DNA from: Tessaracoccus flavescens
GTDB taxonomy: Bacteria; Actinomycetota; Actinomycetes; Propionibacteriales; Propionibacteriaceae
DNA length: 64,000 nucleotides
Reading direction: 5' to 3'
Assembly: GCF_001998865.1 (NCBI RefSeq)
Contig: NZ_CP019607.1
Span: forward strand, 3,286,001-3,350,000
Shown here: positions 2,407 to 11,850 of the stretch, piece by piece
Layout of the letters: each line of letters starts with the position of its first letter
Position numbering within the stretch: the stretch's first letter is position 1
The notes under the pieces: model-generated
Database searches by the model: none
What the model was told of the DNA's origin: nothing
What the model saw: only the letters and a program-made list of their open reading frames with translations
Program-made: the position numbers and the translations under genes

Positions 2407-3147
2407 TGGCGACATACCCGCCTCGGTGACAAGTACGTCACCGTGATCATCGACCTCACCCCGGTCCGGGACGGCACCGGGCCCTCACGCCTGCTGGACG
2501 TGGTCGAAGGTCGGTCGAAGAAGGCGTTCAAGGACTGGCTGGCCGAGCGGGACCAGGCTTGGCGCGATGGGATCGAGGTCGTGGCCATGGATGGGTTCGC
2601 GGGCTTCAAGACCGCCACCACCGAGGAGCTGCCGGACGCCGTCACGGTTATGGATCCCTTCCACGTCATCCGGTTGGCCGGGGACGCTCTCGATGAGTGC
2701 CGCCGCCGAGTCCAACAGGAACTGCACGGACACCGCGGACGCAAGGGCGAGCCGCTCTACACCGCGCGGCGGACCCTGCACACCGGGGCTGACCTGCTCA
2801 CCGACCGCCAGCACGAGCGCCTTGACAAGCTCTTCGCTGGGGACCGGCACGTGCAAGTCGAGTGCACCTGGGGGATCTACCAGCGCATGATCTCCGCCTA
2901 CCGTCACCCCGACCGGGCAGCCGGCCGCGTCGAGATGAGCTCCGTGATCGACGCCCTCGCCGACAGTGTGCCTGAGGCGTTGGTAGAACTACGCAAGCTC
3001 GGGCCGCACCCTGACCAGACGCGCCTGCGACGTCCTGGCCTACTTCGACCGGCCGCGCACGGGCAACGGACCTACCGAAGCCGTGAACGGTCGCCTCGAG
3101 CACCTGCGTGGCCTGGCCCTCGGCTTCCGCAACCTCACCAACTACAT
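2407..3147 (+). pseudogene. ISL3 transposase, central fragment with frameshift
   Basis: This piece continues the transposase after the intron with WRHTRLGDKYVTVIIDLTPV. It carries the second catalytic aspartate in VVAMDGFAGF and the family segment VMDPFHVIRLAGDALDECR. Near 3001-3003 one extra G (CTC GGG CCGC instead of CTC GGC CGC) breaks the frame. After the shift the DNA encodes RTLTRRACDVLAYFDRP, the region with the catalytic glutamate (NGPTEAVNGRLEHLRG) and LGFRNLTNYI. The coding sequence is then cut at 3147 by the tyrosine-recombinase element. Codon use matches exon 1. The frameshift could be a sequencing error in a G run. Confidence 0.88.
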
Positions 3148-3176
3148 AGCTTATGCGGAATTCCGCATAAGCTATG
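3145..3176. repeat. 32-bp perfect palindrome at left border of recombinase element
   Basis: The sequence CATAGCTTATGCGGAA is followed directly by its exact reverse complement, making a 32-base perfect palindrome centred on AATT. It lies only at the left side of the element; the right side passes straight from the inverted repeat into transposase sequence. The outer CAT and ATG of the palindrome match the CAT seen at the right junction. It could be a coupling sequence brought in from a previous site, a recombination site, or a separate tiny insertion. Confidence 0.9.
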
Positions 3177-3260
3177 GTATGTCGACCTCGGGGTTATGTT
3201 GACCGACGTCGTGGGGTGCCTGTTCCAGTGCGGGTTGGGGCCTGATCCGGTCAACATAAC
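3174..3260 (+). repeat. Left 87-bp inverted terminal repeat
   Basis: This 87-base stretch is the reverse complement of 4365-4451 except for two mismatches near its inner end (CTGATCCGG versus CTGAGCCGA). Within it, GTTATGTTGACC (3193-3204) and its inverse GGTCAACATAAC (3249-3260) form a pair of 12-bp arms 44 bases apart. This is the geometry expected of recombinase binding arms. Confidence 0.93.
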
Positions 3261-3340
3261 GATGAATGCTCGGGTCGGGGTTCGCTTGATCTGACCGGGC
3301 GATCGTTGGGATCGCCTGGCTTCGGGTCAGGAGGACCAAG

Positions 3341-4354
3341 ATGGTGATTCATCGTGATCAGTGCCGCGCTGACGCGCGGGACGTGCTGGACGAGTTCGAA
3401 GCGTGGCTGCTGCGGGAACGGTCCACGCAAGAGGGCACCGCTGCTGCCTACGCCGACACGTTCCGGCTCCTGCTGACCTACGCCCAGCAGGCCACCGGGA
3501 TCGCCCCGTCGGCGTTGACCCTGGCCGATCTGGACGCGGACCTGATCGGCGGATTCCTCCAGCATCTGGAAACCGAGCGCGGCAACTCCGCCGCGACCCG
3601 CAACGCCCGCCGGGCCGCGCTGCGGTCGTTCTTCAGCTACGCCAGCTACCGGGCACCCGACGCGATCGCAACGATCAGCCAAGTCCTCGCGATCCCCGCG
3701 AAACGCACCAAGACCACCCTCGTGTCGTTCCTGACCGCTGCCGAAGCCGAAGCCCTCATCGCAGCCCCGGACACCGGCACCTGGCTCGGGCGCCGAGACC
3801 GGCTCCTGCTGCACCTGGGCATCCAAACCGGACTCCGCGTCAGCGAGCTGACCAGCCTGCACATCGACAGCATCCAGATCGGCCCGCACAGCCAGCTCGA
3901 ATGCATCGGCAAGGGCCGCAAGCAACGCGTGATCCCACTCCAGAAGAACACCGTCCAACTCCTCAACGCCTGGTTCGGCGAGCTTCCACCCGTACCGGAC
4001 GGGCCACTGTTCCCGACCCACGCCGGGACGCCACTGACCAGGGCTGCGGTCGGCAAGCTCATCGCCCGTCATACCGCTGCCGCGGTCGGACGGTGTTCTT
4101 CCTTGGCCGAGAAGAACGTCACGCCCCACACGCTGCGGCACACTTGCGCAATGAGCCTGCTGCACGCCGGGATCGACACCGCGAGCATCGCGCTCTGGCT
4201 CGGGCACTCGAACATCCAGACCACGCAGATCTACCTCCACGCCGACCTCGAACTCAAACGACGAACCCTGGAACGCGTCCCCGCCGTCGATGAGCGGCCA
4301 CCGGCCCGCTACCAAGCCTCGGACGCTCTCATCGCGTTCCTCAAGAACCGCTGA
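3341..4354 (+). CDS. Tyrosine recombinase/integrase of the element
   Basis: This 337-residue enzyme would cut and rejoin DNA at the element ends through a covalent phosphotyrosine link. An N-terminal SAM-like core-binding domain occupies about residues 10-105 (FEAWLLRERSTQEGTAAAY). The catalytic domain shows the full set of residues: Arg in TGLRVSELTSL, Lys in CIGKGRKQRVIPL, HTLRHT, LGHSNIQTTQIYLH, and the Tyr of that last motif. Nothing catalytic is missing. The gene fills almost the whole element and no second gene is present, so it is probably the only mobility protein. Its start is preceded by a GGAGG-like sequence (GTCAGGAGGACC). It is not a standard DDE transposase. Confidence 0.93.
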   Translation: MVIHRDQCRADARDVLDEFEAWLLRERSTQEGTAAAYADTFRLLLTYAQQATGIAPSALTLADLDADLIGGFLQHLETERGNSAATRNARRAALRSFFSYASYRAPDAIATISQVLAIPAKRTKTTLVSFLTAAEAEALIAAPDTGTWLGRRDRLLLHLGIQTGLRVSELTSLHIDSIQIGPHSQLECIGKGRKQRVIPLQKNTVQLLNAWFGELPPVPDGPLFPTHAGTPLTRAAVGKLIARHTAAAVGRCSSLAEKNVTPHTLRHTCAMSLLHAGIDTASIALWLGHSNIQTTQIYLHADLELKRRTLERVPAVDERPPARYQASDALIAFLKNR

Positions 4355-4364
4355 ACCCCGCACG

Positions 4365-4451
4365 GTTATGTTGATCGGCTCAGGCCCCAACCCGCACTGG
4401 AACAGGCACCCCACGACGTCGGTCAACATAACCCCGAGGTCGACATACCAT
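4365..4451 (-). repeat. Right 87-bp inverted terminal repeat
   Basis: This is the partner of 3174-3260, differing at two positions. It carries GTTATGTTGATC (4365-4376) and GGTCAACATAAC (4421-4432), the same paired 12-bp arms as the left end with one change in the inner arm. Its outer end runs directly into ISL3 transposase sequence at CAT. Confidence 0.92.
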
Positions 4452-4509
4452 CGCCCGCGCACTCCTCGAAGCCGGCGGATTCAGACCACACCTACACCCC
4501 GAATTGTGA
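4450..4509 (+). pseudogene. ISL3 transposase, 3' terminal fragment
   Basis: These bases encode IARALLEAGGFRPHLHPEL followed by a stop, the normal C-terminus of this transposase family. The fragment joins in frame to LTNYI at 3147, which shows that the recombinase element inserted without deleting host bases. The ISL3 right terminal repeat overlaps and follows the stop codon. Confidence 0.88.
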
Positions 4510-4607: not shown

Positions 4608-5807
4608 TCACCCCATGCCGAGGCGTTCGGCCACGAAGTCGATGTCCTTGTCGCCGCGGCCCGACAGGTTCACGATGATCACGTCGTCCGCCGTGAGGGT
4701 CGGCGCGAGCTTCATGGCGTAGGCCAGCGCGTGGCTCGACTCGATGGCGGGGATGATGCCCTCGGCACGGCAGAGCACCTGGAAGGCCTCGAGGGTCTCG
4801 TCGTCGGTGGCGGTGACGTAGTTGACGCGGCCCAGGTCGCGCAGGTGGGCGTGCTGCGGCCCGACGCCGGGGTAGTCGAGTCCCGATGCGATCGAGTGCA
4901 CCGGCCACGGCTCGCCCGCCTCGTCCTGCAGCACGAGGGTCTTCATGCCGTGGAGCACCCCCGGCGTGCCGAGCGCCATGGTCGCGGCGTGCTCACCAGG
5001 GGCGTCGAGGCTCCTGCCCGCGGGCTCGACACCGTAGATGGCGACGTCCGCGTCCTCGAGGAAGGCGCTGAACAGGCCCATCGCGTTGGAGCCGCCGCCA
5101 ACGGCTGCCACGAGCGCGGTGGGGAGGCGTCCCTCCTTCTCCTGGACCTGGCGGCGTGCCTCGCGCCCGACGATCGACTGGAAGTCGCGCACCATCGAGG
5201 GGAAGGGGTCGGGGCCCACCACCGAGCCGATGGCGAACATCGTCTCGCCGAAGTCGGCCGCCCACACGCCGAAGGCGGAGTCGACGGCGTCCTTGAGGCA
5301 GCGTCCTCCGCTCTCGACGGAGACGACCTTCGCGCCGAGGAGGCGCATCCGCACCACATTGGGGTGCTGCTTCTCGATGTCGATCGCGCCCATGTGGATC
5401 TCGCACTCGAGCCCGAGCAGCGCGGCGGCGGTGGCGAGGGCGACGCCGTGCTGGCCTGCGCCGGTTTCGGCGATGACCTTCTTCTTGCCCATCCGCTTGG
5501 CAAGCAGGACCTCGCCGAGGGTGTGGTTGATCTTGTGCGCGCCGGTGTGGTTCAGGTCCTCGCGCTTCAGGTAGATCTTGGCCCCGCCCAGTTCGGCGCT
5601 CAGCCGTGCCGCGAGGAAGAGGGGTGAAGGCCGGCCGACGTAGTCGGCGAGCAGGGCCTCGTACTCGGCCTGGAAGGCGGGGTCATCCTTTGCCTCGGCA
5701 TAGGCAGCCGCCACCTCGGCGATCGGCGCCTCGAGATGCGGGGGGAGGAAGCGGCCGCCATGGGCGCCGAAGAAGCCGGCCTCGTCGGCCTGGGTGAGCG
5801 AAGTCAT
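4608..5807 (-). CDS. trpB: Tryptophan synthase beta chain, second orphan copy
   Basis: This 399-residue enzyme would join indole to serine to make tryptophan, using pyridoxal phosphate. The PLP lysine lies in [15 protein letters not shown], the phosphate loop is [13 protein letters not shown], and the substrate loop motif [13 protein letters not shown] is intact. It belongs to the usual TrpB1 type and is a paralogue of the operon trpB at 10615-11850. It stands alone on the minus strand, next to the ISL3 remnant and far from trpA. It may work as an indole-salvage enzyme or as a backup. Its ATG follows a TAGCAT box by six bases, so its mRNA is probably leaderless. Codon use looks native. Confidence 0.95.
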
Positions 5808-10614: not shown

Positions 10615-11850
10615 ATGAGCCAGCCAGACAGTGTCGGCCACTTCGGACGTTTCGGGGGCCGCTTCGTCCCCGAGGCGCTGCAGGCGGCCCTCGACGAACT
10701 GACCGTCGCCTTCGACGAGGCGATGGCCGATCCCACGTTCCATGCGGACCTGGAGAAGCTGCAGAAGGACTACGCGGGTCGACCCACCCCGATCACCGAG
10801 GCGGCGAACTTCTCCCGACAGTGCGGCAACGCGCGGATCCTGCTCAAGCGTGAGGACCTGAACCACACCGGCGCGCACAAGATCAACAACGTGCTCGGCC
10901 AGGCCCTGCTCACCAAGCGGATGGGCAAGACCCGCGTCATCGCCGAGACCGGAGCCGGCCAGCACGGCGTCGCCACGGCGACGGCCGCCGCCCTGCTCGG
11001 CCTCGAGTGCCGGGTCTACATGGGCGAGGTCGACACGAAGCGGCAGGCCCTGAACGTGGCCCGCATGCAGCTGCTCGGCGCCGAGGTTTACGCGGTCGCC
11101 GCGGGCTCGCGCACGCTCAAGGACGCCATGAACGAGGCGATGCGCGACTGGGTGACCACCGTCGACTCGACCCACTACCTGATCGGCACCGTCGGCGGTC
11201 CGCACCCGTTCCCGTACCTCGTGCGCGAACTGCAGCGCGTGATCTCGACCGAGGCCCGCCAGCAGATGCTGGACGCCTACGGCGCGCTGCCCGACTACGT
11301 CGCGGCCTGCGTCGGCGGAGGGTCGAACGCGATCGGCATGTTCGCCGACTTCATCCCGGACGAGGACGTCAAGCTCTACGGTTTCGAGGCCGAGGGCGAC
11401 GGCATCTCCACGGGGCGCCACGCGGCGACGATCACCGCGGGCACTCCCGGCGTGCTGCACGGCGCAAGGACCTACGTGCTCCAGGATGAGGACGGCCAGA
11501 CCATCGAGTCGCACTCGATCTCTGCCGGGCTCGACTACCCGGGGGTAGGCCCCGAGCACGCGTGGCTCGCCGACACCGGCCGCGCCGTCTATGAGCCGGT
11601 CACCGATGCCGACGCCATGGACGCGTTCCAGCAGCTCACCCGCACCGAGGGCATCATCCCGGCCATCGAGTCGGCCCACGCCGTCGCGGGGGCCAAGCGG
11701 CTCGGGCTGCGGCTCGCCGAGTCCGACCCGCAGGCCAGGCCGACGATCCTCGTGTGCCTCTCCGGTCGCGGCGACAAGGACGTGGCCACCGCCTTCGAGT
11801 GGTTCGGCCTCGCAGGAGAGCCGGACAAGACCGTCGGAGGCATGGAATGA
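10615..11850 (+). CDS. trpB: Tryptophan synthase beta chain (operon copy)
   Basis: The 411-residue beta subunit combines indole and serine. The PLP-binding lysine is in [15 protein letters not shown], the glycine loop is [12 protein letters not shown], and [17 protein letters not shown] is intact. It directly precedes trpA and overlaps it by four bases, the normal arrangement for an alpha2beta2 complex. It is clearly related to the orphan copy at 4608-5807 but differs along its length, so the duplication is not recent. It is the likely partner of TrpA. Confidence 0.97.

Follow-up and report, generated by a model that had tools for sequence, protein, structure and literature searches.

What is a 1.3-kb element that carries a single tyrosine recombinase gene, and how did it come to lie inside the transposase gene of another mobile element? 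The question is raised by a locus of Tessaracoccus flavescens. It lies in a stretch of 64,000 nucleotides (contig NZ_CP019607.1, positions 3,286,001 to 3,350,000 of the forward strand) that we call the window and whose numbering is used below. The original prediction, made from the letters of this stretch, took the element for a possible undescribed family of insertion sequences.

Another class of element has to be considered. RITs carry three adjacent recombinase genes, ritA, ritB and ritC. As described by Van Houdt and co-workers, they are about 3.5 kb long, with terminal inverted repeats and a palindrome near their ends, and they have been found in a Tn6049-like transposase gene and in radC (PMC3414803). 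A further insertion is reported in tnpA of IS66 (PMC2864759). RITs, their repeats, the end palindrome and insertion into transposase genes are thus already described (PMC3414803, PMC2864759).

Here we compare the window element with RITs of its own chromosome and of other genomes. We conclude that it is probably a RIT that has been shortened to one fused gene. Such a natural one-gene derivative, living beside five intact trios, offers a test of whether the genes of a RIT act in cis, in trans, or neither. The fixed side of its palindrome and the short spacers at its ends predict the joint of a circle and the point of crossover. The mobile elements described here use one conserved codon in other transposons as a landing site.

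RESULTS

The insert and its target gene

By sequence comparison the window element is an insert of 1,304 bp, 3146-4449, that splits an ISL3 transposase gene (Table 1). The original prediction had the length right and the same insert in view but placed it two bases off, at 3148-4451; comparison of the spacers favours 3146-4449. An empty relative in genome G034 (locus L234) has the same ISL3 site at 98% identity over 221 bp, with both flanks alike. Since L234 lacks exactly the insert, no target bases were lost at insertion, as had been proposed. The left part of the window gene has an extra G when aligned with L234, so the target is frameshifted besides carrying the insert.

Table 1. Features of the element and of the interrupted gene, in window coordinates
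Feature	Position	Strand	Evidence or remark
ISL3-family transposase gene, left part (target)	2443..3145	+	PF01610 E 2.7e-37; gene in two pieces
Spacer 1, ATAGC, boundary of target and palindrome	3146..3150	+	spacer comparison
Perfect 20-bp palindrome TTATGCGGAATTCCGCATAA, predicted to form two divergent half-sites for recombinase	3151..3170	.	12 exact genome copies
Spacer 2, GCTAT (inverted ATAGC), boundary of palindrome and left repeat	3171..3175	+	variable among copies
Left terminal inverted repeat	3176..3260	+	outer arm GGTATGTCGACC, inner arm GTTATGTTGACC, inverted arm GGTCAACATAAC
Fused ritA(1-36)::ritC tyrosine-recombinase gene, 337 aa	3341..4354	+	predicted catalytic R166, K191, H263, R266, H289, Y298
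Deletion junction, 6-bp microhomology GCCTAC	3446..3451	+	present in both ritA and ritC
Right terminal inverted repeat	4365..4449	-	repeat alignment
Spacer 3, ATCGC, the target's own bases	4450..4454	+	identical to empty site L234
ISL3 transposase gene, right part (C-terminus and stop)	4450..4508	+	alignment to L234

The inverted repeats can be aligned over 87 bp at 97.7% identity (3174-3260 and 4365-4451) or, alternatively, over 90 bp at 97%. The first alignment bears out the 87-bp repeats of the original prediction, and its paired 12-bp arms 44 bases apart are likewise present: 44 bases separate GTTATGTTGACC (3193-3204) from GGTCAACATAAC (3249-3260) in the left repeat, while the right repeat has a single mismatch in one arm (GTTATGTTGATC). 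The inner arm GTTATGTTGACC sits 17 bp inward of the outer arm GGTATGTCGACC. Outside the left repeat lies a perfect palindrome, which the spacers lengthen to 32 bp; neither this palindrome nor the three-gene relatives in the same chromosome figured in the original prediction. Spacer 1 reads ATAGC where the empty site has ATCGC, so it was likely imported with the element.

The same ISL3 gene holds a second guest, a group II intron with a reverse transcriptase/maturase ORF at 779-2290 (TIGR04416, E 2.9e-116) and flanks placed by eye at about 290-2410. Close together in the window, two differing ORFs read in translation like the beta subunit of tryptophan synthase (4608-5807 on the minus strand and 10615-11850 on the plus strand).

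The recombinase gene joins ritA to ritC

In a domain search the 337-aa product matched Phage_integrase (E 1.5e-31) and a SAM-like N-domain (E 9.3e-9), confirming the complete tyrosine recombinase that had been predicted. Eleven NCBIfam models, XerC and XerD included, also matched, all below their curated cut-offs. Only domains of the phage-integrase type were found; the gene shows neither a DDE nor a HUH transposase.

Comparison with a full-length RIT of the same chromosome, R_a, reveals how the gene is built. The short element is missing 1,842 bp, and its protein is RitA through residue 36 and RitC thereafter, joined in frame at GCCTAC. Over residues 12-330 it is 91.9% identical to the RitC of R_a, which places it in the RitC family, and its close relatives in other genomes are the RitC proteins of trios. 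The fusion put ritC behind the start of ritA and the DNA upstream of it.

The fused protein looks complete. In an alignment of 33 sequences the residues with a predicted catalytic role, R166, H263, R266, H289 and Y298, are invariant, and K191 is nearly so. The predicted structure (mean pLDDT 81.8, pTM 0.56, with residues 1-8 below 50) contains the helices and strands of complete core-binding and catalytic domains. Its fold matches XerA, XerH, integron, Cre and Tn1549 recombinases in the PDB, best of all XerA and XerH (TM 0.46-0.57 by query length).

Short copies and full RITs share one chromosome

A DNA search of the T. flavescens genome found six copies of the short element, five complete (S1, in the window, to S5) and one truncated; for RITs, multiple copies have been read as a sign of mobility. 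S1-S5 are identical apart from the spacer positions. Six further loci have additional DNA between the left end of the short element (99-100% identity in five, 79% in the sixth, R_f) and its 3' 1,012 bp (86-93%). R_a to R_e, five of the six, are 3,126 bp each and hold the ritA, ritB and ritC of a RIT as intact recombinase ORFs that overlap (312, 322 and 330 aa), against the one ORF of the short element. R_f is a disrupted RIT of 4,606 bp that holds a Mutator-family transposase ORF. Otherwise the short element has what RITs have, inverted repeats and a palindrome that overlaps or adjoins them, though at 1,304 bp it is well below the RIT length of about 3.5 kb.

Its left 281 bp equal R_a, and its right part, from ritC, is 93% identical to R_a and closer, at 95%, to copies in G119, a genome of the same genus. 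The exact parent RIT was not found in the T. flavescens genome. The right repeat is the same to the last base in all five complete short copies and differs from that of R_a to R_e.

The truncated copy (L026, G000:C1:2264737-2268891) has four internal base differences. About 3 kb from it, in a different ISL3 gene, is a second remnant consisting of the palindrome and about 23 bp of repeat.

All complete copies follow the same codon

The palindrome TTATGCGGAATTCCGCATAA has 12 exact sites in the genome and none at one to three mismatches; the control gave 0. It marks one end of all 11 complete elements, and the twelfth copy is at a remnant. All 11, one-gene and three-gene alike, directly follow the same ISL3 codon (CAC in R_e and TAC in the other ten). 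Relative to the ISL3 gene the palindrome always lies 5' (11/11), whereas the element itself is oriented + in five cases and - in six. ISL3 is multicopy in this genome, with 42 PF01610 matches, many of them pieces; among 30 ISL3 loci inspected by eye, seven intact sites keep the motif unoccupied.

The ISL3 genes that hold the short copies are of four types or more, the copies point both ways and their spacers differ, which argues for separate hops rather than duplication of ISL3. The original prediction had seen mobility in the precise insertion, and several copies with both ends in common, in different ISL3 genes and both orientations, speak for it too. It had further expected a genuine family to show many copies at unrelated sites; what we find is 11 of 11 complete copies at one codon of ISL3 transposase genes.

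The same arrangement recurs in ISL3 genes of other genomes (L095, L097, L098, L099, L100 and L104) and in a cytosine methyltransferase gene (L101, from the family search; L212 and L213 read alike). In L099, L100, L212 and L213, three of the ten palindrome pairs are mismatched. For these assignments we set aside the joined ORFs of L107, L110, L111 and L112 (493), whose repeat matches were poor or absent, and the longest joined ORFs of S1, L099, L100, L108 and L112 (4300), which contained no recognised target gene. The repeat matches of L212 and L213 have 1 and 4 mismatches in 24. At these two loci (about 4.6 and 6.3 kb) the RIT-type ends enclose more DNA than three genes require; part of the extra DNA of L213 matches ISL3 transposase, so it may be a nested insertion sequence and not cargo.

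Spacers and their sides

Every insertion has three 5-base spacers. Which of them belongs to the target? A case was counted as informative when both spacers were readable and a close empty relative was available (left 150 bp at 96% or more, L234 at 98%, or L302 at 125/126). In six of the seven informative cases (S1, S2, S3, S4, R_a and R_b) it is the palindrome-distal spacer that is native, and in R_c the order is reversed; seven cases are too few for this side rule to be more than suggestive. Empty relatives for S2, S3, S4, R_a and R_c were matched on the left 150 bp (96-100%). Over the right 110 bp, which extend beyond the end of the gene in these comparisons, the empty relatives from the same genome are only 61-77% identical, so the matching is mainly by the left flank.

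Several other cases stand outside the count of seven. R_e agrees but has a relative of 90%, and L098 and L101 agree with a native state taken from the gene type alone. In a remnant at G000:C1:2268872, whose other end is lost, the bases on the palindrome side look native. S5, R_d and R_f are uninformative as to which spacer is native and which imported.

Where did the imported bases come from? Those in T. flavescens (ATAGC, ATCGC, GTCGC and ACCGC) are of kinds that are native at other ISL3 sites. L101, in a methyltransferase gene, carries ATCAC, which is native in one ISL3 gene (L250), and L098, in ISL3, carries GGCGC, a spacer that L212 and L213, in the methyltransferase gene, also have. Judged by their bases, the spacers would fit coupling sequences carried over from earlier sites.

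At the right junction of R_c (L027, G000:C1:2279542-2279554) the sequence is ATAGCCAGAAGCC, which is exactly the site found in a different ISL3 type (L091, L092); beyond it the flank reverts to the element's own ISL3 sequence. This stretch is possibly a conversion patch.

End geometry in RITs of other phyla

We examined 15 ends of 14 elements from actinobacteria, proteobacteria and myxobacteria, selected for having the palindrome. The TATG of the inner arm lies 24 bases past the palindrome in all 15, that of the outer arm 7 bases past it in 14, and an inverted CATA is found at 82-85 in 11. The same TTATG core is present in the halves of the palindrome; halves and arms look like binding sites for one set of recombinases. 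The CATA and TATG that flank a 5-base spacer are 8 bases apart, a usual separation in a crossover site of tyrosine recombinases.

The palindrome, in the form TTATG-n10-CATAA, is present in 21 of 52 RIT loci and absent from 31, including all of the more distant L214-L233; the 52 include several duplicates and loci at contig ends. L116 has the same palindrome at both ends of the RIT (1334-1353 and 4818-4837), and its flanks are inverted repeats of each other; the copies in T. flavescens are one-ended. L112 has a second near-palindrome at 484-503, with one mismatched pair; the flank resembles a repeat, and a neighbouring RIT may end here.

Single-gene copies elsewhere

Is the short form found in other genomes? 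A DNA search of 197 genomes of the family, scoring two candidates per genome, found no full-length short element outside T. flavescens. No plasmid copy was found (76 records had a match, none covering 80%), and no phage copy. Among the best 120 of 7,878 protein matches, none reached the RitA-derived start (query cover at most 95%; clustering at 90% could hide one). In a profile search, with T. flavescens included, RitC was present in 24 of 391 genomes of the order and 22 of 396 of the phylum. These genomes held no other one-gene copy among up to five candidates scored in each, a depth at which a short copy beside several trios could escape, as those of T. flavescens did. We also found no genome in which the short element occurs without a trio.

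Scanning 84,980 species genomes yielded 79 loci, of which 32 (L095-L126) were examined for RitA and RitB. RitB sequence lies upstream of RitC in 25 of the 26 best (L095-L120), a count that excludes the partial or distant L121-L126. Of the RitC rows from genomes other than T. flavescens, the order sample has 37, with RitB immediately upstream in 32, and the phylum sample 24, with RitB so placed, by eye, in 21. None of the eight rows without an adjacent RitB (5/37 and 3/24) is a short element with both ends. The original prediction would fall, by its own account, if the recombinase always proved part of larger elements. This is largely what we see: truncated, rearranged and contig-end copies aside, the recombinase is, in the further genomes we looked at, one of the three genes of a RIT, and its closer relatives have the same ends.

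Individual candidates for a one-gene copy were rejected. L107, the exception among the 26, is not a lone RitC; the start of its RitC is cut by a gene that reads like a transposase. L219 holds a trio and an additional RitC copy with a remnant of RitB, L254 and L256 are both trios, and L306 (G455) is a trio with an interrupted ritC. In L255 the RitC is oppositely oriented beside RitA and RitB; L257 and L258 are parts of one RIT split by rearrangement. In L305 (G782) all that accompanies RitC is a remnant of RitB, and 6.5 kb showed no inverted repeat; L307 (G666) stops at a contig end inside RitB.

DISCUSSION

How the element may move

We think it probable that the 1.3-kb element is a shortened RIT, with both ends and a single ritA-ritC fusion gene retained, and that it jumps as a predicted circle into one codon of ISL3 transposase genes, helped by the full-length RITs that share its chromosome. 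In the joint of the circle, the right repeat would be followed by 5 bp, the palindrome, another 5 bp and the left repeat, so that two mirror-image crossover sites would arise, each with one half of the palindrome as a half-site. Recombination of either site with the target would insert the element in either orientation, always with the palindrome on the 5' side. Such a two-site joint in the predicted circle would account for the palindrome side in 11 of 11 copies. The spacers would be coupling sequences brought from earlier sites. RitA and RitB of the intact trios likely act in trans on the short element, with or without its own RitC-like protein; only the co-residence with five intact trios suggests this trans-mobilisation.

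Does the short element need such help? Its ORF is intact and retains all predicted catalytic residues, its predicted structure has complete core-binding and catalytic domains and matches tyrosine recombinases in the PDB, and the fusion supplied ritC with the ritA start and upstream DNA. The kept residues and the predicted fold would permit autonomy, in which the RitA-RitC fusion alone recognises ends, palindrome and target and drives movement, one recombinase replacing three. We nevertheless consider autonomy unlikely, given the five co-resident trios and the position of RitB upstream of RitC elsewhere (32/37 rows in the order, 21/24 by eye in the phylum); GInts, a related three-recombinase element, are reported to need all four of their genes (PMC10214605). 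Just as doubtful is a self-sufficient one-recombinase transposon in which a RitA-RitC chimera uses a two-headed attachment site and the spacers record earlier targets.

The short form could instead be immobile and have multiplied passively, through transposition of ISL3 or gene conversion of RIT insertions. The target, ISL3, is multicopy too, and short and full elements have in common the left 281 bp and, on the right, about 1 kb, enough for homologous exchange. The spread of the short copies over four or more ISL3 types, both orientations and differing spacers speaks against this, however, and the five complete copies keep the short-form right repeat to the last base, unlike R_a to R_e, so that conversion would have to stop in the spacer each time. 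Passive spread thus appears improbable. Least probable by far is a new family of insertion sequences with one tyrosine recombinase and an independent origin. The single gene, the long inverted repeats and the several copies would favour it, but ends, palindrome, target and protein all match RITs of the same chromosome and no other single-gene copy was found in the genomes sampled; we reject it because of the ritA-ritC junction, which contradicts it, and the co-resident trios.

Comparison with known systems

In elements of the Tn916/Tn1549 type, bases from the old site are carried as coupling sequences in the joint of the circle, which has a single crossover site. The shortened RIT would likewise carry old-site bases in its joint, but with two mirror-image sites predicted. 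MITE-like derivatives of DDE insertion sequences are internally deleted, retain their ends and multiply beside full-length copies. The short element, by contrast, is of the tyrosine-recombinase kind and still has its recombinase gene whole and in frame.

The short element resembles RITs in its RitC-type recombinase, its inverted repeats with an overlapping palindrome and its insertion in transposase genes; it differs in having one fused gene in place of ritA-ritB-ritC and a length of 1.3 kb, against about 3.1 kb for the RITs here and about 3.5 kb for those of PMC3414803. Strand-biased circularizing elements (SEs) and Tn554 also combine tyrosine recombinases with target specificity (PMC10214605). 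As presented there, they have a short spacer with one native and one imported copy on defined sides, a rule that our six of seven cases, with R_c reversed, can only suggest here. SEs and Tn554 form a double-stranded circle that carries one flank and leave no empty donor site; in our case the circle is predicted. SEs, as described in PMC10214605, have four genes and a 6-bp footprint, where we find a 20-bp palindrome between two spacers. Searches of the open PMC literature, whose coverage does not extend to Ricker 2013 and Nielsen 2017, yielded no one-gene fused RIT derivative, fixed palindrome side or spacer record.

The RITs of this chromosome differ from distant ones in one further respect. 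At 312 aa, the RitA of R_a (L028, 3422-4360) is about 90-100 N-terminal residues shorter than the RitA of distant RITs (402 aa and more; the comparison was with L108 RitA, 816-2024). A double core-binding domain is reported for RitA (PMC8138268) and may be absent in the R_a-type subgroup.
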